A DNA stretch of 39,446 bases from a virus, in the IMG/VR virus record IMGVR_UViG_3300044691_000222, positions 1-39,446 of that record; one strand, written 5' to 3'. Under the pieces are notes generated by a model, which did no database searches, was not told the origin of the DNA, and saw only the letters and a list, made by a program, of their open reading frames with translations. The position numbers were made by a program, and so were the translations under genes. The stretch's first letter is position 1. Every line of letters begins with the position of its first letter. Below, piece after piece: positions 805 through 34,357 of this stretch.

Positions 805-1932
805 CTACATCGCCCGCGTTCTAGACGCACCAATGCGCTCCGATTGGGGGTGCTTGCGATTGAGAGGGTCGATGTCTCCAAGCAAGTTCTTCTGTCTTTC
901 GATGCGGTTGTGTGAATACATCTTGAGCGCCTCGCGGGAGAGCTGGCCGGTGATTGATTGGATGTCCTGCTCCGAATGGCCCTCCTCAAATAAGCGCGTG
1001 ATGATCTGGTGCCGTAGGCAGTGAGGCGTCAGCCAGGGGAGCCCTGCAGCCTCGCGCAGTTCGTGGAACTGGTTGCGCAGCCATGATGCGCTTGCGGGCT
1101 TGTAGGGGTCGTACAGGCCACGCATGACGCGCTTAGGGAACAGGTAATGTTCGGGGCGATAGCTGCCAAGCTTCTTCGCTCGGACGATCGCCCTCCTGAA
1201 GTCACCCATGCAAGTCTCGTTCACAAAGATGCGGCGCCCGCGGTTCTCATTCTTGCAAAACTCAGGCGGAATCATAAAAGTGGGGTAGGGGTTTTCGAGG
1301 TACAGATTCTCGTGCTTTAGGTGGCGCAGCTCCGTGCCGGCCGCCGAGGTATTGTTTGTGATCGAAGCCGCAATACATCCCAGCTCCCAGTCTGGATTCG
1401 ACCGGGCAATGGAAAATAGCCGCTCCTCCTCTTCATCTGTCATGACCTTCTGCGGTCTGGTCGGAGGCTTTGGGATGGGCTCATAGTGCGGGGCGAATCT
1501 CTGCCCCCATACCCCGGCCCTCTTGAGGATCATCTGCACTACGCTCAACTCGTGATTAATGAGGGACGATCCGGCGCGGCGCTTCCACGGCTGCTTTTTA
1601 GTGCCATCGGGCAGAGTTATCGAGTTCTCCATCCGCGCGATCTGGTATTGGCGCAGATGTCCGATGTGCATCCGATTCATCGGGATGTCTTCGAGGAATT
1701 TGTTGATCTGGTCGATGTGATGCCCGGCCATGTAGAAAGTTCGTTCTTTCAGGTAAGGTTTCCGGGTTGCCAGCCAAAGCGCAGCTGCGATAGAGAACTT
1801 CTGAGATAGCAGCGAATCAGGATCTTGGCCCAATGTGTCGTCCCTTGTTGCTTCGCATGCTGGGCAATCGACATGCGCGAATGTGTGCTGCAGTGGTTGG
1901 TGAGGGAGTATGGCTTCATCATGGCTTGGCAT
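805..1932 (-). CDS. int: Tyrosine site-specific recombinase (phage integrase)
   Basis: The 375-residue product catalyses integration and excision between phage and host attachment sites. The core-binding domain covers roughly residues 40-160. The catalytic domain shows the box I arginine in GTELRHLK, a box II HCLRH (His-x-x-Arg), and the nucleophile region ALKMYSHNR with the catalytic tyrosine near the C terminus; in the second-histidine position it has a Gly-Gln (ITGQLS), a variant seen in some members. The N terminus contains CPACEATR, a possible zinc knuckle. Start at 1932 has AGGAGA six bases upstream; the in-frame extension to 1995 lacks a better site. The gene points toward the att core, 175 bases away. 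Confidence 0.95.
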   Translation of the reverse strand: MPSHDEAILPHQPLQHTFAHVDCPACEATRDDTLGQDPDSLLSQKFSIAAALWLATRKPYLKERTFYMAGHHIDQINKFLEDIPMNRMHIGHLRQYQIARMENSITLPDGTKKQPWKRRAGSSLINHELSVVQMILKRAGVWGQRFAPHYEPIPKPPTRPQKVMTDEEEERLFSIARSNPDWELGCIAASITNNTSAAGTELRHLKHENLYLENPYPTFMIPPEFCKNENRGRRIFVNETCMGDFRRAIVRAKKLGSYRPEHYLFPKRVMRGLYDPYKPASASWLRNQFHELREAAGLPWLTPHCLRHQIITRLFEEGHSEQDIQSITGQLSREALKMYSHNRIERQKNLLGDIDPLNRKHPQSERIGASRTRAM

Positions 1933-1991
1933 GCAGTTCTCCTTTCCGGTCTTCGCCGGTTTGAAGAGACTAGCATTTGTACATACAAAAG

Positions 1992-2002
1992 ACACTAAGT
2001 GT
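1992..2002. promoter_or_regulatory. Palindrome ACACT-A-AGTGT in the int/RHH intergenic region
   Basis: A perfect 5-bp inverted repeat with one central base lies between the divergent integrase gene and the first RHH regulator gene, upstream of the latter's -35 box. Ribbon-helix-helix dimers often bind such short palindromes, so autoregulation by the neighbouring protein is possible but not shown. Confidence 0.4.
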
Positions 2003-3545: not shown

Positions 3546-5641
3546 CAGTGGAATTTCGCTCGCCCTGAAATCTTGCTGTGGCCGTGGATGGCAACAGGAG
3601 CCGAAGGTGCCGCGTTGACCGTGATCGTGTCGCCCGGAGAAGTGACCGCCCCAATTGAGGCCGTGACTACGCTGGTTCCAGTCGCCACACCCGTAACCAC
3701 CCCAGAAGAGTTGATTGTTGCTTTGGCCGGCGTTGCGCTGACCCAGGTAGGGCCGGAGCAAGCCGCAGTCGATGAGTCGGAGAAGGTACTCGTGCAGGTC
3801 AGGGCGAGCGTATTGCCTACTGTGACAGTGCCAGGGTTGGGGGTTAGAGCCATGCTCGCAAGCGTCGGGGCGGAACCCGTGAACTCCAAGGCTCCGATGG
3901 CGGGCGGGTTGGGACGGGTCACGCCCGCGTAGTCGACCGTGATTCCAGCAATAGTGATGCCTGCTCCTGAGACTGCGCTACCTGTTGAGGCCGGAGCCAT
4001 GTTGCCGAAGCTGTAAGCGTGGTAAGTCTCATCCACTAGACCGGGATCGCCGCAGACCGCTGAGGACTCTCCCGTTCCTCCACAGACCCAACTGCTTTTG
4101 CCTCCGTGCGTGGCGTTGTTCGTCCAACTCGCCCCTGAGTTCGTCAGAACCGCAGGGATAGCGGGTGCTCCACCACCAGCCCCGTCCACCCCTCCAACGC
4201 TATATATAGGAGATGGGTTAGCTGCGTTACCGGAGTTGAAGAAGCCGAAGAAGACATTGTTGTTGAACTTCAGGATGTTGGTAGGTCCGAAGTCTGAGGT
4301 AGCATATTCGACTTCCAGCCCAACGCTGCCTTCGGAAAATACAGTGTTGTCCTGAAACACCGAGGGCAGTCCGGGAGTAGTGTCGATGACGATGGCAGTG
4401 TTCCCCGCCCGACAGACATCGCCCAAACTATCTCCGGTAGGAACGGGTCTTCCTGTAATCACCTGATTGAGTGCTTCACAGTTTCCGACGATCACGCTGT
4501 TCTGAATTGTGGCCGTGGCACCATCGCCCACCTTGATCTGCTGCCCTTCATTGCCGTATGTGAGGACTCTTGTTACGGTCATCGTCGATCCGGCACCACT
4601 CACGTGCTTGGCGTCCAGCCCGTCCTGCGTGTTGTAAGTTGCGGTTCCCTGATCGAAATGAACCTGCCAACCAGGAGAAGGGCTTGCAACAGAAGCTGTG
4701 CCGAAACCGTCTCCATACCCTCCCGTAACGTCGTCGCGGCAATTGACATAAGGGAGCGGATCGACCAGTGGATACTCTTCCGTGCAACCATTCCACGAGA
4801 TGTCGAAGTTAGTCACGTTGAACACACCAACCCCAGTGTTGCCGTCCCCCTTATCCGTGTTCCATCCGCTCAAACCATTCCCAACGATCTGAATGTCCGT
4901 GGAGTTGATCGGACCTGAAGGTGATCCAAGGATGCCGGTATTTACAATCCCATGTACGCGAATATCGGTCAGGGTTACATCGTGGGACAGCAGGGAGAAG
5001 TTGATCCCGTACTTAGCAAAGTCGGTTCCACCAGGACCGGCGAAATCGGTTATGTCAAGACACTGAAGGTCAACAAAGGCGGAATTTGACAGATTGACTC
5101 CGGTGTACTGTAGTGGAACCCCCATGAAGATTACATTGTCAACGCCAAATCCGCCATGAAGCTGTGTCCGCGCCGTCTGTGAGGTGCAGGAGGCGTAGTT
5201 TCCACCCCTGATGATCGTATGTTGGCCTGACGTGCCCGAAGGAGGAGAAGGCATCCCTGAGTCGTTAGAGTCTCCGCAGATGCCCCGAGCGTTGGGAGTG
5301 ATGCCGCAACCTGCCGCAGAATCCCAACCAAGGCGATAGGTAACGCCGTCTGCAATCGACCCGCGAATGGTCACAATATCCCCGCCCGCGATGATCCAGT
5401 TATAGCCGGGGTTATTGCCGCCGAACTGCTGGGTTCCGTCCTGCCAGAGAAATCGGACATCGTTAAAAGCGCATGCCTGATTGGTTCCAGACCCGGGATA
5501 AGGGGCATCAGCCAAGCCGCTACATTGGCCCGTCGTTACGTTCGAGGAGAAGCGCGTTCCCCCGTCCGGCCTGACAAACCAAGAGGTCTGCGCAAACGCA
5601 GGGAGAGAGGAAAGCAGCAACGCGAGGATGGGTATTTTCAT
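3545..5641 (-). CDS. Beta-helix tail/secreted protein with signal peptide and BIG2 Ig-like domain
   Basis: The 698-residue product starts with an apparent Sec signal peptide (MKIPILALLLSSLPAFA, cleavage predicted before Gln18). Residues about 20-520 are rich in short Gly/Asn/Thr/Val repeats such as DVTLTDIRVHGI, TVTRVLTYGNEG and ATIQNSVIVGN that look like rungs of a right-handed parallel beta-helix (pectate-lyase fold), as in tailspikes that degrade or bind polysaccharide. Residues about 585-685 match a bacterial Ig-like group 2 domain (LTPNPGTVTVGNTLALTCT through GVVTGVATGTSVVTA). AGGAG lies upstream of the ATG. A signal peptide on a virion protein would be unusual; it may instead be exported. 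Confidence 0.8.
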   Translation of the reverse strand: MKIPILALLLSSLPAFAQTSWFVRPDGGTRFSSNVTTGQCSGLADAPYPGSGTNQACAFNDVRFLWQDGTQQFGGNNPGYNWIIAGGDIVTIRGSIADGVTYRLGWDSAAGCGITPNARGICGDSNDSGMPSPPSGTSGQHTIIRGGNYASCTSQTARTQLHGGFGVDNVIFMGVPLQYTGVNLSNSAFVDLQCLDITDFAGPGGTDFAKYGINFSLLSHDVTLTDIRVHGIVNTGILGSPSGPINSTDIQIVGNGLSGWNTDKGDGNTGVGVFNVTNFDISWNGCTEEYPLVDPLPYVNCRDDVTGGYGDGFGTASVASPSPGWQVHFDQGTATYNTQDGLDAKHVSGAGSTMTVTRVLTYGNEGQQIKVGDGATATIQNSVIVGNCEALNQVITGRPVPTGDSLGDVCRAGNTAIVIDTTPGLPSVFQDNTVFSEGSVGLEVEYATSDFGPTNILKFNNNVFFGFFNSGNAANPSPIYSVGGVDGAGGGAPAIPAVLTNSGASWTNNATHGGKSSWVCGGTGESSAVCGDPGLVDETYHAYSFGNMAPASTGSAVSGAGITIAGITVDYAGVTRPNPPAIGALEFTGSAPTLASMALTPNPGTVTVGNTLALTCTSTFSDSSTAACSGPTWVSATPAKATINSSGVVTGVATGTSVVTASIGAVTSPGDTITVNAAPSAPVAIHGHSKISGRAKFH

Positions 5642-15372: not shown

Positions 15373-15819
15373 CTAAATCCTCTTCGTGAAGGCGTAATCA
15401 CTCAATCGGTATCCGAGCGCTTGAAATAGTTTCGTGTGGTCGAAATGCACCTTGCACGAGAAATAAATCTTGATAGCGCCCATCCGATGGGCTACATCTT
15501 CGGTGAATCGGACCAGCTTTACCCCGGTGCCAGATCGGCATTCGGGAGATATGTAGTATGCGTCCACGATGAGCATCAAAGGCGAAGTGCGGTAGTGCAA
15601 ATGCTTGCTTGTGACGGCAAGCAGATAGCCGACCATGCGGCCATCCTCACGAACGGTGATGACCTTGAACATGCCGATATCTTCCATCGCCTTCATCTTG
15701 GCGAAGTCGAGCGCAATTTCGAGGTCTAAGTCGAGCCCCAACTCCTGCCAGTGGGCATAAACAAGGTCTTTCGACTCGGAGGCCCACTCTTCGACCGGTT
15801 CAACCTGAAATGTCGTCAT
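15373..15819 (-). CDS. GNAT-family acyltransferase in the virion gene cluster
   Basis: The 148-residue product has the GNAT fold pattern: MFKVITVREDGRMVGYLLAV strands, then the acyl-donor binding loop SPECRSGTGVKLVRFTEDVA (R-x-G-x-G type) preceded by the strand LMLIVDAYYI, and a C-terminal FQALGYRLSDYAFTKRI strand-helix. GNAT enzymes transfer acetyl or longer acyl groups from CoA, or in some branches from acyl carrier protein, to amines. Related genes occur among podoviral structural genes. Here the ATG overlaps the stop of the acyl carrier protein gene as ATGA, a direct coupling that suggests the carrier may supply the donor. The target is unknown. Confidence 0.85.
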   Translation of the reverse strand: MTTFQVEPVEEWASESKDLVYAHWQELGLDLDLEIALDFAKMKAMEDIGMFKVITVREDGRMVGYLLAVTSKHLHYRTSPLMLIVDAYYISPECRSGTGVKLVRFTEDVAHRMGAIKIYFSCKVHFDHTKLFQALGYRLSDYAFTKRI

Positions 15820-16016
15820 TGAACCGTCTGCGCGGCCATGAACAGGTCGTTCACTGTGTTGATGTGCGGCACGACAGCATCAGAGATGTTGCCGATGCTG
15901 ACAATCAGGTCGAGGAAATCAAGCGAATCCATGCCAAGGCTGTCCAGCCTCGTTTCAGGGGTTATGTCCTTGCCGGTATGCTCTTTCACTACGGTCATCA
16001 CATCTTCAATCGTCAT
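15816..16016 (-). CDS. Phage-encoded acyl carrier protein
   Basis: The 66-residue product is a minimal acyl carrier protein: helix I (TIEDVMTVVKEHTG), the linker ITPETRLDSLG, the phosphopantetheine attachment motif LGMDSLDFLDLI with modifiable Ser31, and a C-terminal helix (VNDLFMAAQTV). It is slightly shorter than bacterial AcpP (about 78 residues). It would need a host phosphopantetheinyl transferase, since none is encoded here. Both edges are coupled: ATG overlaps the stop of the upstream tail protein, and its stop overlaps the GNAT start, each as ATGA. No fatty-acid synthase or acyl-ACP synthetase gene is nearby. Expression with late genes suggests an acylated phage or envelope target. 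Confidence 0.88.
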   Translation of the reverse strand: MTIEDVMTVVKEHTGKDITPETRLDSLGMDSLDFLDLIVSIGNISDAVVPHINTVNDLFMAAQTVQ

Positions 16017-16669
16017 GTCGCTTGCACCTGTGCCGTCAAAAGTCCGTTCGTGTACGTTTGGCTTCCTTGTGTACCGCCTACAGTGAGTGCCGCCGTGACA
16101 ATCACTGCGTTGATTCCGAACGCTCCCGCTGTCGCTCCGATAACTAAGCCCTGAGCATTGACCGTGACAGTCGCGATCGCATAAGTACCCGACACCACAC
16201 CAGAAGCTGGCATCTGTGTTGCCGGATCGATCGTTCCCGTCAGTCCGCTGAATCCTGGGTGGCTTGGATCCCATGTCGCGCCTCCAAAGACAAGCACTTG
16301 CCCAGCCGCCGGTGCCGACGCAACGAGTGCCTGATGTGCGACCACCCCGCCCGCCAATGGGCTCCCCACGCCGTCATTGATGTGGTCAGTAGTCTTGTTC
16401 AGGTAGGGCCGCGAGAAGTCCACCATTGGGGCGCTCGCTGCGCCGGTGTCATCGATGAGCCCAACCGTGGTGCCGATTCCTTCAGTACGTCCGGTGATTA
16501 CGGTAGAAGCGTTGATTTCCCCGATGAGCTGGCCAATCTCATTGAGCCCGTTCTGTAACTGCGTGTTCCACTGCTGCAGCACCTTCAAAAACGAAAATGT
16601 AGCATTGCCGTCCTTGTCTACGATCGGGGAGCGGCTGGCTAGGAATGTCGTTGCCGGTTTGAGTGCCAT
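16013..16669 (-). CDS. Tail-associated structural protein
   Basis: The 218-residue product opens with a short motif PIVDKDGNATFSFLKVLQQW typical of podoviral proteins that sit after the gp10 gene, followed by a coiled helix (NTQLQNGLNEIGQLIGEINA) and a beta-rich, Gly/Ala/Thr-rich C-terminal half with SGVVSGTYAIATVTVNAQG, a motif seen in fibre shafts. It is probably a virion tail component, perhaps a tail needle or fibre connector, but the exact role is not determined. The ATG directly follows the stop of the preceding gene (TAA-ATG), and its stop overlaps the ACP start. Confidence 0.65.
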   Translation of the reverse strand: MALKPATTFLASRSPIVDKDGNATFSFLKVLQQWNTQLQNGLNEIGQLIGEINASTVITGRTEGIGTTVGLIDDTGAASAPMVDFSRPYLNKTTDHINDGVGSPLAGGVVAHQALVASAPAAGQVLVFGGATWDPSHPGFSGLTGTIDPATQMPASGVVSGTYAIATVTVNAQGLVIGATAGAFGINAVIVTAALTVGGTQGSQTYTNGLLTAQVQAT

Positions 16670-16861
16670 TTAGAAGGCTGCTATGCGCTCAGAGAGGATG
16701 CGAGAGTATTGCGACATGGCCTCCGCTTGCCTTGCCAGTCGATATTGCTCGAGTTCCGGGAGCCCGAAGTGGGTCAAGCTGCCGATAAATACGTTTAGCT
16801 TTTCGAGCTTGGAGTCCAGTTCCGTCTTCTCGTCCACTACGCGCTGCTGATGTGGTTGCAT
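16670..16861 (-). CDS. Small conserved phage protein (helical)
   Basis: The 63-residue product reads MQPHQQRVVDEKTELDSKLE at its start and ends YSRILSERIAAF. It is a helical hairpin-like protein of a kind repeatedly found in phage genomes and annotated as hypothetical; the 'QQRVV.EK.EL..KL..L..FI' and 'L..RI.AF' signature is well known in that group. GGAGAAAC before the ATG supports the start at 16861 over longer in-frame starts. It lies between the gp10-like gene and the tail structural gene. Function unknown. Confidence 0.75.
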   Translation of the reverse strand: MQPHQQRVVDEKTELDSKLEKLNVFIGSLTHFGLPELEQYRLARQAEAMSQYSRILSERIAAF

Positions 16862-16872
16862 TGTTTCTCCTT

Positions 16873-18339
16873 TTATGCGGTACGTAAGTATGCATCCACG
16901 ATGACCCAAGGGATGGGGTCGGATACGGTCACTTCGTACACTCTGTACCGCGACCTTCCCAAGCGTCTCCATATGACTCGCGCGTTGTATTCACCCGCAA
17001 ACCCGCAGCTAGCAATGTGTTGGTTGGACCATGTAGAGCCGCGGTTATTGCTCCACCTCAGCATCGCTTGTGGAGGTCTAGGGTTGCCGTCTCCATCAGT
17101 TAGCGGAGGCTGAGGTCCGAGGCCGGTTGCAAAGTCTACCGTAAGCTCTGTGTGATAAACCCATGCCATCTCATCGTTCAGGCTCGGAGAGCGGCGTTTC
17201 CGCACTATCGATGCGCCATTGTCAGTGACGAAATCATAGGTGCCATCATGGTTATCGACAGCTAACTTCATCTCCCAGAGGTTGCCGGTCATCCAATCGC
17301 CCACAAGATGCTTGCCGAAGGCATATGTATGGTTCCAGCTTCGGTGAGGCCCGTAAACTGCAACATCGGCATGCCACTCAGCCCGCTTATGCCACAGGCT
17401 TTCAGCTACGTCGTAGACCCATGTGCAGTCCGTTCCGGGGATGTAGAGCACCCAGAACAGATGCCCGCCATCCTCATATGGATAGCTAACAAGGTTCGAT
17501 ACTTGATCGGCAGTGTAGGACGATAGCGCAGTCTCTACCGCATGGGTTGAAATGCGCGAAGGCGTATAGCCATTGGCCCGCCATGCTTGCCTTGCTCCTC
17601 GGGCGTCTTGGCTGATCCAAAATACGGTGTTGTCTACTAAATCAACACCGAAGGTCGCCGCGCCGCCTGTTTCGATGAGTGCGCCCGGGATAACATCGAA
17701 TATCTCGCTACTGCCAGTATTCTGATAGGGCTGCGCGTGCTGCGCGCCGATAACCCACAATTCCCGGTGGCTCACTTCGATTGAGACGATGTTCTCGGGA
17801 AATACCGAGATGGCGTTGACCTGAATTCCTGGCCATGTGGTGCCATCGAGGATGGCTGAAATCTGGAATTTGTTATCGTCAGCGAACATGACGATGAAAT
17901 AACCGTCTGAATATTTGACCTTGACGGGGCCTCCTGCCAGTTGCTCGGTCACGTTGGTAAAGGTATTGCCTGCTAATTCATAGCACCATGCTTGGCCATC
18001 AGCGACGATTAGGAGTTCTATATTGCTGGCTGCAATCGATACCGGAGCCCCGAACACATCCAGCGTGTTGGCCATCCGCACCACCTGCGTGCCATCCGCG
18101 AAGACTTCATAGAGCGTGTCATAGGACGCCACAAAGAGCCTGCTGCCCGTCCAGCACTGTCCCCGCACTGGGCTATCGGCGAACGTAGCGAACACGGAAA
18201 GCCCCGGCGTACCGAAGTATGATCGCTGCGTCTGCGCTCCCGGCGTCTCGATTGTCTCCGCGAAGAAGTTGATGCACTCTTCGTCTGCGACTACATTCGA
18301 TTTGGCCGTGTACGAAGGGCCGACGAACCCGAATTTCAT
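16873..18339 (-). CDS. P22 gp10-like packaged-DNA stabilisation / tail hub protein
   Basis: The 488-residue product begins MKFGFVGPSYTAKSNVVADE followed by CINFFAETI and FGTPGLSVF, the N-terminal signature of the P22 gp10 family (gp10 itself is 472 residues). It is beta-propeller-like, with repeated strands such as LFVASYDTLYEVFADG and YIPGTDCTWVYDVAESLWHK. In P22 this protein plugs the portal after gp4 and keeps the DNA packaged. It follows the gp4-like gene with a TAATG overlap, matching P22 order. Confidence 0.88.
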   Translation of the reverse strand: MKFGFVGPSYTAKSNVVADEECINFFAETIETPGAQTQRSYFGTPGLSVFATFADSPVRGQCWTGSRLFVASYDTLYEVFADGTQVVRMANTLDVFGAPVSIAASNIELLIVADGQAWCYELAGNTFTNVTEQLAGGPVKVKYSDGYFIVMFADDNKFQISAILDGTTWPGIQVNAISVFPENIVSIEVSHRELWVIGAQHAQPYQNTGSSEIFDVIPGALIETGGAATFGVDLVDNTVFWISQDARGARQAWRANGYTPSRISTHAVETALSSYTADQVSNLVSYPYEDGGHLFWVLYIPGTDCTWVYDVAESLWHKRAEWHADVAVYGPHRSWNHTYAFGKHLVGDWMTGNLWEMKLAVDNHDGTYDFVTDNGASIVRKRRSPSLNDEMAWVYHTELTVDFATGLGPQPPLTDGDGNPRPPQAMLRWSNNRGSTWSNQHIASCGFAGEYNARVIWRRLGRSRYRVYEVTVSDPIPWVIVDAYLRTA

Positions 18340-32470: not shown

Positions 32471-32889
32471 GCCGCCACCTTGCGCTTCAGGGTTTCAGCT
32501 ATGCGCTGCGAAAACTCGGTATGAGGCTTGGGGATACTGCCGTCTTTCATCTGCGTCCCGCGGGCTAGATGGTTGTGATCAGAACACCGTCCGCTGCGAT
32601 TGCGCTTTGTGTGCGTTATCTCGTTATCGCAGCCCATAACGAAGCAGGATCTCAGTAGAATCAAGGAGGCAGCTGGTTTTGGTCGAGGCGCCTTCCTGTA
32701 CTCCGCGAAATACTTCCGCTCCCAGTTCAACTGCCTCTTCTTCGCCGCTTCGATCTGCGCATGTCTGTAGCAAAGGCTATCTTTGTTAGCTCGCGCTAGC
32801 GCCGTCTTGCAGCCATCGTGCTCGCAGAATCTCTTTTCTGGCTGGGGTATGGTGCAATATTCCGAGATACGTTCTTCAATGGTAATCAT
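32467..32889 (-). CDS. Zinc-binding hypothetical protein
   Basis: The 140-residue product contains two Cys/His sets: CEHDGCKTALARANKDSLCY followed by RHAQ, and CFVMGCDNEITHTKRNRSGR followed by CSDHNHLARG. Each fits C-x4-C-x(12-15)-C-x2-H zinc knuckles found in phage DNA-associated proteins. Basic linker AAKKRQLNWERKYFAEYRKA. It is coupled to the methyltransferase gene by ATGA, which may hint at a linked role, but function is unknown. Confidence 0.68.
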   Translation of the reverse strand: MITIEERISEYCTIPQPEKRFCEHDGCKTALARANKDSLCYRHAQIEAAKKRQLNWERKYFAEYRKAPRPKPAASLILLRSCFVMGCDNEITHTKRNRSGRCSDHNHLARGTQMKDGSIPKPHTEFSQRIAETLKRKVAA

Positions 32890-33866
32890 GACTGCGCCTC
32901 CAGTGCTTGCTTTATGCGCCTTGCTATCATCTCGGGTATCTGAGGGACTACTGCATTGCCTAGTCCTCTAAGGCGGTCCACATGGGCTCGTATCCCATCA
33001 TCTGTTCCACCCAATCGGGGTTTAAGTCTTGGCCTTTCGTACTCATGCTGGTAATCACCCCACCCCGCGGGCCATCGATGCGTATAGCGGTTCGCAGTGC
33101 TGGACTCTTCCGATTCGCTTCCGCCATGCACACCCCGCGATCCATCTCTGCCTTCGGTGTAGGCCACATCTTCACCGCACCTGGAAGACCGTTCCTCGGA
33201 TTCGAGGAATTGAACTCTCCCCGCTTCAATGGGTCGTTCGCTCTGGGCGTGGGCCATCGCTTCGCTACCTGCGACAACCTCTCTAGCGACTGCCATCCCG
33301 CCTTGTTGATGTGGCGAATTGTTCCATTCCTGGTTAGCACTGGAGAAGGAGAGGGCGACCGGTCGAATGTGTCCGAAGCGGATGGGGTAGGCCAATATCC
33401 ATACGCGCTCTCGAAGGTGGGAAGCTCCCATATCTGCAGCCGAAATGATTCTCCACTCCGCGTCATACCCGATTTCGGCCAAGTCTCCGAGTACAACTCC
33501 CATTCCCCGTCCAAGCAGAGCTGCGACGTTCTCCACGAGGACGTAGCGCGGTCGTAGCTCGCGAATGATTCGGTGCATCTCGGTCCATAGTCCGCTGCGC
33601 TCTCCCTCGATTCCTGCCCGCTTGCCGGCGTTGCTAATGTCCTGGCAGGGGAACCCTCCACAGATAACGTCAACTGGCTTGAGGTTGTGACTTCCGCATT
33701 CTCTGATGTCTCCAAAACGTTCCGCCTCCGGGAAATTCTTTGCTAAAACCTTCTGACAATAAGGGTCGATTTCTACCTGCCACGCCGTTTTGAATCCAGC
33801 GCGCTCGAACCCAAGATCGAACCCACCTATGCCTGCGAATAAGCTTCCAATGGTGAATTGCGTCAC
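32886..33866 (-). CDS. dcm: DNA (cytosine-5) methyltransferase
   Basis: The 326-residue product has the C5 motifs in order: motif I SLFAGIGGFDLGF (about 8-20), motif IV GGFPCQDISNAG with catalytic Cys74, motif VI VENVAALLG with Glu112, motif VIII SHLRERVWILA (about 149-159), a variable target-recognition region, and motifs IX-X (RVDRLRGLGNAVVPQIPEMI, about 293-315). It transfers a methyl group from S-adenosylmethionine to cytosine, likely to shield phage DNA from restriction; no partner restriction enzyme is visible. Start is GTG at 33866, overlapping the upstream stop as GTGA with GGAGG before it. A second reading frame overlaps residues about 51-302. Confidence 0.93.
   Translation of the reverse strand: MTQFTIGSLFAGIGGFDLGFERAGFKTAWQVEIDPYCQKVLAKNFPEAERFGDIRECGSHNLKPVDVICGGFPCQDISNAGKRAGIEGERSGLWTEMHRIIRELRPRYVLVENVAALLGRGMGVVLGDLAEIGYDAEWRIISAADMGASHLRERVWILAYPIRFGHIRPVALSFSSANQEWNNSPHQQGGMAVAREVVAGSEAMAHAQSERPIEAGRVQFLESEERSSRCGEDVAYTEGRDGSRGVHGGSESEESSTANRYTHRWPAGWGDYQHEYERPRLKPRLGGTDDGIRAHVDRLRGLGNAVVPQIPEMIARRIKQALEAQS
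32960..33715 (-). CDS. WPTP-repeat protein encoded in another frame inside dcm
   Basis: A 251-residue frame lies wholly within the methyltransferase gene, same strand, shifted frame, with a TTG start at 33715. Its content looks genuine: SYDRATSSWRTSQLCLDGEW, ETWPKSGMTRSGESFRL, three WPTP motifs (WPTPSASD, WPTPRAND, WPTPKAE) and a C-terminal DLNPDWVEQMMGYEPMWTAL. These features recur in phage proteins annotated beside or as part of cytosine methyltransferases. The WPTP codons read in the dcm frame give repeated A-H/Y-P/T-type residues of its variable region, for example WPTPSAS against AYPIRF. The likely role is methyltransferase-associated; function unknown. Confidence 0.7.
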   Translation of the reverse strand: METSENAEVTTSSQLTLSVEGSPARTLATPASGQESRESAADYGPRCTESFASYDRATSSWRTSQLCLDGEWELYSETWPKSGMTRSGESFRLQIWELPTFESAYGYWPTPSASDTFDRSPSPSPVLTRNGTIRHINKAGWQSLERLSQVAKRWPTPRANDPLKRGEFNSSNPRNGLPGAVKMWPTPKAEMDRGVCMAEANRKSPALRTAIRIDGPRGGVITSMSTKGQDLNPDWVEQMMGYEPMWTALED

Positions 33867-34357
33867 TGGCCTCCTGCCTTCGACTTGCGATCTTCTTGCG
33901 GAGTTCCTGCCTTCCAAGCTGTCCAGCAGGCGCACCTGACTGCAAACCGGCCGTCGTTGCGAAACTCCAGGATCATGCCTGAAACACACCTTCCGCAGGG
34001 AACGTATGGATTAGCTTCACGCGCCTCTTGCTTCTCTTTTTTCACGAGTGCCTCCAGTTCTTCAGAAACTTCGCTAGGATGAGGGAAAAACTTCTGTCCC
34101 GGCTTGATGCGGATGTTCAGAAGGGCGGTCTGCAGCCGGTAAACTCCGTACATCACCGCGAGCCTCTCCAGGTCGAATTGGAATCCCCGAATCGTCTCTT
34201 CCGCGAACTCCTGATGCGGGTAGTACGCCTGCATCTGTCGATTCAATTGGTCCAGTTGCTCTAGCTGCGCGTCGTTCAGCCGCAACTCGGTCCCACGCAC
34301 TGAGAGAGCGTTCGACCCTACCAACTGCCGCACCTCGATTGCCGTTATTCGCTCCAT
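33863..34357 (-). CDS. Hypothetical protein with C-terminal zinc ribbon
   Basis: The 164-residue product begins MERITAIEVRQLVGSNALSV; a helical middle (LNDAQLEQLDQLNRQMQAYY, FQFDLERLAVMYGVYRLQTA) precedes FFPHPSEVSEELEALVKKEK and a C-terminal CGRCVSGMILEFRNDGRFAV with RCACW. An ideal AAGGAGG five bases before the ATG fixes the start at 34357. The first 284 bases lie inside the end of the replication-initiator gene in another frame. Its place after the initiator suggests a helicase loader or replication accessory, as with P/DnaC-type genes, but no ATPase motif is present. Confidence 0.72.
   Translation of the reverse strand: MERITAIEVRQLVGSNALSVRGTELRLNDAQLEQLDQLNRQMQAYYPHQEFAEETIRGFQFDLERLAVMYGVYRLQTALLNIRIKPGQKFFPHPSEVSEELEALVKKEKQEAREANPYVPCGRCVSGMILEFRNDGRFAVRCACWTAWKAGTPQEDRKSKAGGQ

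Follow-up and report, generated by a model that had tools for sequence, protein, structure and literature searches.

The DNA analysed here, a virus record of 39,446 bases taken in full as the window, comes from a short-tailed soil phage, which profile searches of its genes identify as a temperate P22-like podovirus. Its virion gene cluster holds an overlapping pair of small genes, one for an acyl carrier protein (ACP) and one for a protein of the GNAT acyltransferase fold, placed just ahead of the gene for a gp7-like ejection protein. This pair is tentatively read as a two-part acyl-transfer module, gained by the virion assembly operon of one P22-like lineage and acting on the gp7-like protein, a reading to which a somewhat less than even probability is assigned. 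What is new is the dedicated ACP beside a GNAT whose presence in the ejection-gene slot is already known; in the literature searched, such a pairing of ACP and GNAT within the virion operon of a phage was not described.

Genome setting and the virion operon

Besides an integrase, the window encodes a P22-type coat and portal, terminase genes, a head closure protein and an Erf-type annealing protein; a C-5 cytosine DNA methyltransferase (32886-33989; PF00145, E 2.8e-51) lies in the early region. The virion genes are found on the minus strand, where, in the order of transcription, the head closure gene is followed by the gene at 16013-16669, the ACP, the GNAT, the gp7-like ejection protein and two larger proteins placed as gp20 and gp16 are in P22. 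The ejection gene starts 3 nt after the GNAT stop codon. The preliminary description had located ACP and GNAT in this cluster and joined by ATGA, and both statements hold, the overlaps being exact (Table 1). The product of the gene upstream of the ACP, labelled a tail protein in the preliminary description, has no family match in Pfam, PHROGs or NCBIfam; judged by position, it would fill the slot that a P22 gp26-like protein holds in Sf6. Between this gene and the head closure gene lies a small ORF (16670-16972), which is kept as a 74-aa protein in the related contig L011 (4284-4508). The head closure protein of another relative (L009:752-3067) measures 771 aa, where the window copy has 488, and the difference apparently reflects ~280 inserted residues. 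In the bacterial genomes searched, neither the GNAT clade nor the portal had a relative, and the named phages searched contained no DNA similar to the window.

Table 1. Positions in the window of the ACP-GNAT pair and of the genes discussed with it
Feature	Position	Strand	Basis
Integrase	805-1995		
gp7-like ejection protein, 294 aa	14485..15369	-	PHROG 598 DNA ejection, E 5.5e-28
GNAT-fold acyltransferase-like protein, 148 aa	15373..15819	-	Pfam, PHROG 1249, predicted structure, Foldseek
ATGA overlap, ACP stop and GNAT start codon	15816..15819	-	Sequence
ACP, 66 aa	15816..16016	-	Pfam PP-binding, solved-ACP profile, predicted fold, DSL motif Asp30-Ser31-Leu32
Codon (TCG) of the predicted phosphopantetheine-bearing Ser31	15924..15926	-	Sequence and translation; invariant 15/15
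ATGA overlap, stop of upstream gene and ACP start	16013..16016	-	Sequence
Gene upstream of the ACP	16013..16669	-	P22 gp26 slot by position vs Sf6
Head closure / P22 gp10-like stabilisation protein	16873..18339	-	PHROG 578 head closure Hc3, E 2.2e-90

The carrier protein and the GNAT

The assignment of the two products to the ACP and GNAT families, made at first from the letters alone, is borne out by family profile searches and by confident predicted structures. As a single sequence the ACP reaches 25 bits against Pfam PP-binding (PF00550; cut-off 20.8, E 2.3e-5), and a profile built from 13 members matches solved ACPs of fatty-acid synthesis with E 6e-14. Its AlphaFold model (mean pLDDT 89) is a helical bundle in which Ser31 opens helix II (residues 31-41) as in known ACPs; TMq against solved ACPs is about 0.8, the Foldseek E-value reaching only 2e-3, the protein being short. 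Among the solved folds matched are those of ACP in MukBEF and in iron-sulfur complexes. Against the FAS-type equivalog TIGR00517 of NCBIfam the score is 19.6 bits, far below the cut-off of 70.45, so that, by sequence, this is a diverged ACP and no recent copy of a host FAS gene. Of its residues, only D30, S31, L32, D46 and D57 are invariant in the 15 homologues; the Asp-Ser-Leu attachment motif, noted earlier as intact, is thus kept in 15/15, and with five invariant sites placed at random, all three motif positions would be hit with a probability of about 2e-4. Mean pairwise identity is 41%, with a minimum of about 21%, and pN/pS values of 0.20-0.60, to be read with synonymous sites near saturation for most pairs, indicate that the ACP evolves under purifying selection. 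Since the ACP diverges fast, a scan of viral contigs with it for close relatives returned nothing, and the relatives were reached via the GNAT instead.

Several simpler accounts were set aside. A chance origin of the two ORFs was rejected on profile, fold and 15-fold conservation, and a degenerate ACP on the invariant serine and a pN/pS below 1. An anti-phage defence gene was rejected as well, PADLOC giving no hit, and a toxin-antitoxin pair was dropped for want of support.

The GNAT scores 22.7 bits against Pfam Acetyltransf_1 (PF00583; cut-off 20.7) and matches the PHROG 1249 acetyltransferase family with E 5.7e-10. Its AlphaFold model (mean pLDDT 91) superimposes on solved GNATs with TMq of about 0.7-0.77; the closest solved folds in Foldseek are the AAC(3)-I aminoglycoside acetyltransferases (E 1e-6 for AAC(3)-Ia) and N-terminal acetyltransferases of the RimI and Naa60 types, and the closest viral predictions are podovirus GNATs. 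The RtxC family is absent among its Pfam and NCBIfam matches; its His23 and the catalytic His23 of HlyC carry equal numbers by coincidence, and the agreement was disregarded. Compared with the pattern Q/R-x-x-G-x-G/A of the CoA pyrophosphate loop, GNATs of the ACP-bearing clade carry a loop x-R-x-G-x-G, in which the glycines and one arginine are kept and the first position is not Q/R. The resemblance of R-x-G-x-G to a CoA-binding loop suggests that the ACP may not be the acyl donor.

In this context one should consider that the GNAT might load the ACP, moving an acyl group from CoA onto the ACP thiol, with the acyl-ACP then feeding a host enzyme or a change of the envelope. The loop could indeed bind CoA, and an adjacent GNAT and ACP with loading activity occur in curacin biosynthesis (PMC3252866). 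However, the scan of the larger phage ORFs revealed no acceptor enzyme and, as had been claimed before, no partner synthase, and the GNAT family mostly lacks an ACP, so that the ACP cannot be the ancestral acceptor; loading of the ACP is judged distinctly unlikely.

Relatives with and without the carrier

GNAT relatives were gathered from viral contigs and named phages. The close group (n=15) consists of the window and 14 contigs (L009-L020, L043, L044; in L016 the contig ends within the GNAT), and in all 15 of these GNATs, which share >50% pairwise identity, the ACP gene is found immediately upstream, its stop overlapping the GNAT start by 4 nt in 11 cases, 20 nt in 3 and 23 nt in 1. GNAT identity remains >52% within this group while that of the ACP drops to about 21%. 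L043 and L044 had been found by their GNATs and stood outside the ACP profile, which nevertheless recognised their ACPs (E 4e-20 and 2e-26). Independent occurrence of the two genes or loss of the serine, which would speak against a joint function, was looked for in these neighbourhoods; overlapping pair and motif occur together in every relative. In L016, an inserted small ORF (4427-4585), cysteine-rich and zinc-ribbon-like, separates the upstream gene from the ACP.

These counts also bear on the view that the ACP is an ordinary auxiliary metabolic gene serving host fatty-acid synthesis, its place beside the GNAT being an accident of insertion. In support of this view, earlier work classed ACPs of phages as auxiliary metabolic genes, that of Alteromonas phage R22Y (PMC11705849) among them, and PHROG 5934 carries this label too. 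On the other hand, the overlap with the GNAT is kept in 15/15 while the gene upstream of the ACP differs among close relatives, and the ACP is diverged, short in comparison with FAS ACPs and far below their NCBIfam cut-offs, so that a purely metabolic role appears very unlikely.

Distant GNATs were examined at 27 loci, a few of them cut by contig ends, with identities below about 35%; none has an ACP beside it, and in 16 full records of ACP-less phages no PP-binding match occurs anywhere; the searched records contain at most one ACP each, adjoining the GNAT. ACP-bearing GNATs form one clade (support 99/99) with one change on a tree whose root is not known, and a single gain of the ACP is the simplest reading, though not the sole one. 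With the ACP confined to the close group and the distant GNATs in the ejection slot, the GNAT belongs to a known type of gene linked to morphogenesis, and the ACP is a partner specific to this lineage. It follows from the ACP-less GNATs in the equivalent slot of many podoviruses that the basic role of the GNAT does not need the ACP. The earlier proposal of an acyl-transfer unit therefore stands in part: ACP, GNAT, tight coupling and virion cluster favour it, but the GNAT family holds the slot elsewhere without an ACP and has the CoA-like loop.

Where the gene order was followed, the GNAT lies directly before a small internal or ejection protein in Pseudomonas phage PfAn1, DC33, Zobellviridae and contigs of the terminase-portal type, and one gene away from it in BPP-1 and ctQRb9; this neighbourhood is kept even where the remaining gene order differs. 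A gene of the PF05118 family (Asp/Asn beta-hydroxylase-like) lies beside the GNAT in PfAn1 (L003:5401-5997), DC33 (L004:5378-6004) and contig L035 (6360-6962). The slot can take up either an ACP or a gene resembling protein hydroxylases, which is consistent with a function in modifying proteins, though on three cases only. The hydroxylase-like neighbour may be seen as a possible alternative modification partner for ejection proteins; neighbours in BPP-1 (bbp23), ctQRb9 and L038 were tried as hydroxylases and gave no match. In the well-studied Bordetella phage BPP-1, the family member bbp24 (L045:5863-6327) is situated between terminase and portal, one gene before a small hypothetical protein, and its neighbour bbp23, labelled a short tail fiber, matched no Pfam family. 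The Limnohabitans phage DC33 (PQ492659.1) is filed under Inoviridae despite a 39-kb genome and podovirus-type genes, a taxonomy that looks wrong.

Comparison of the maps with that of the window assigns T7 gene 13 and Sf6 gene 10 (P22 gene 14) to the equivalent slot, directly upstream of the first ejection gene. The role of these slot genes is poorly understood. Pfam names T7 gp13 a probable scaffold, and PHROGs names Sf6 gene 10 head morphogenesis. It is conceivable that the GNAT serves in assembly with little or no enzymatic activity, in the manner of T7 gp13 and P22 gp14, and that the phage ACP is its small acidic stabilising partner, just as host ACP stabilises partners in several non-synthetic complexes, MukBEF and iron-sulfur complexes being among the fold matches listed above. 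Foldseek ties the GNAT model to proteins of T7-type phages named for host range or assembly, and for the GNAT of cobaviruses a correspondence to T7 gp13 has already been proposed (PMC6775973). However, sequence comparison found no link of the GNAT to T7 gp13 or Sf6 gene 10: the profiles of T7 gp13 (PF11090) and P22 gp14 (PF11039) do not match it, and a profile comparison with T7 gp13 was negative. The conserved loop residues of the GNAT suggest ligand binding, and the invariant Ser31 points to a phosphopantetheinylated ACP, although holo-ACP also serves some structural complexes. On balance an assembly factor is rather unlikely.

Proposed acyl transfer to the ejection protein and known systems

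Acyl transfer to the adjacent ejection protein is regarded as most likely, perhaps at its invariant N-terminal Ser2. In favour of it were counted the ACP overlap in 15/15, the invariance of D30-S31-L32, the single ACP clade, the ejection-gene neighbourhood, the N-terminal acetyltransferases among the closest solved folds and the PF05118 neighbours in three GNAT loci; against it, that most phages of the GNAT family have no ACP, that the R-x-G-x-G loop suggests CoA binding, unlike RtxC, and that adjacent genes of a phage operon need not act on each other. It can be envisaged that a host enzyme of the AcpS type adds phosphopantetheine to Ser31, as the invariant motif would imply, and that ACP and GNAT are made in step from their overlapping genes. 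The GNAT, presumably active, would then move an acyl group onto a free amine of the next protein on the message, the gp7-like one, the likeliest site being the amine of Ser2 once the methionine has been removed. Most likely the ACP would supply or hold the acyl group, allowing one unlike the acetyl that the ACP-less relatives would take from CoA. As a speculation, the modification might influence how the ejection protein is packed in the head or how it enters the host envelope when the DNA is delivered.

The N-terminus MSTAAI of the ejection protein is conserved, and across 11 aligned ejection proteins Met1-Ser2 is invariant, with no invariant lysine. If the ejection protein is the substrate, this pattern favours the N-terminal amine over lysine. 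As bacterial proteins often have a small residue in second position, the conservation of Ser2 is weak evidence for an acylation site, and membrane insertion alone could account for a conserved N-terminus. A more specific proposal, that the phage-encoded, ACP-dependent enzyme fatty-acylates this N-terminus during assembly, the injected protein thereby gaining a membrane anchor, is judged unlikely; lipidation is put forward as a hypothesis. The wider interest lies in the many podoviruses whose ejection protein genes adjoin GNAT-like genes: that one lineage acquired a dedicated carrier and has retained it, its attachment serine intact, suggests acyl chemistry in this slot, and if the ejection protein is acylated, post-translational modification would be part of building or deploying the DNA-injection channel of short-tailed phages.

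Among known systems, the podovirus GNATs found near internal virion proteins (PHROG 1249; Zobellviridae, BPP-1 bbp24) belong to the same family by profile and fold, and mostly share the place directly before the small ejection or internal protein, BPP-1 being one gene away; pc40 of the cobaviruses is grouped with them from its published description (PMC6775973). None of those examined has an ACP partner, and three have the hydroxylase-like neighbour instead. T7 gp13 and P22 gp14 (Sf6 gene 10) resemble the phage GNAT in slot and approximate size and are linked to head or core morphogenesis, but they show no detectable sequence similarity to it, have no ACP and are not known to be enzymes. Small ACPs are likewise encoded by other phages (PHROG 5934; Sinorhizobium phage HMSP1-Susan, Alteromonas phage R22Y); that of HMSP1-Susan, however, is found among small hypothetical genes outside the virion operon with no GNAT beside it, and that of R22Y is filed as metabolic.

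Two further systems can be taken, by analogy, as precedents: the curacin loading module for the ACP as acceptor, and the HlyC-type enzymes for the ACP as donor. The former likewise pairs a GNAT with an adjacent ACP (PMC3252866), but belongs to a polyketide synthase, and no synthase was recognised in the window phage. The RtxC enzymes (HlyC, ApxIC) combine a GNAT fold with an acyl-ACP donor and act on a membrane-active protein encoded next door (PMC8339906). They have no sequence match to the phage GNAT; ApxIC and other acyl-ACP-using RtxC enzymes are reported to be without CoA-binding elements (PMC8339906), so that the CoA-like loop kept in the phage GNAT speaks against a purely HlyC-like reading. 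RtxC enzymes rely on the ACP of the host, in contrast to the phage, whose ACP is encoded together with its enzyme; N-terminal fatty-acylation of the ejection protein would represent a viral counterpart of HlyC-type protein acylation with a dedicated carrier of its own.
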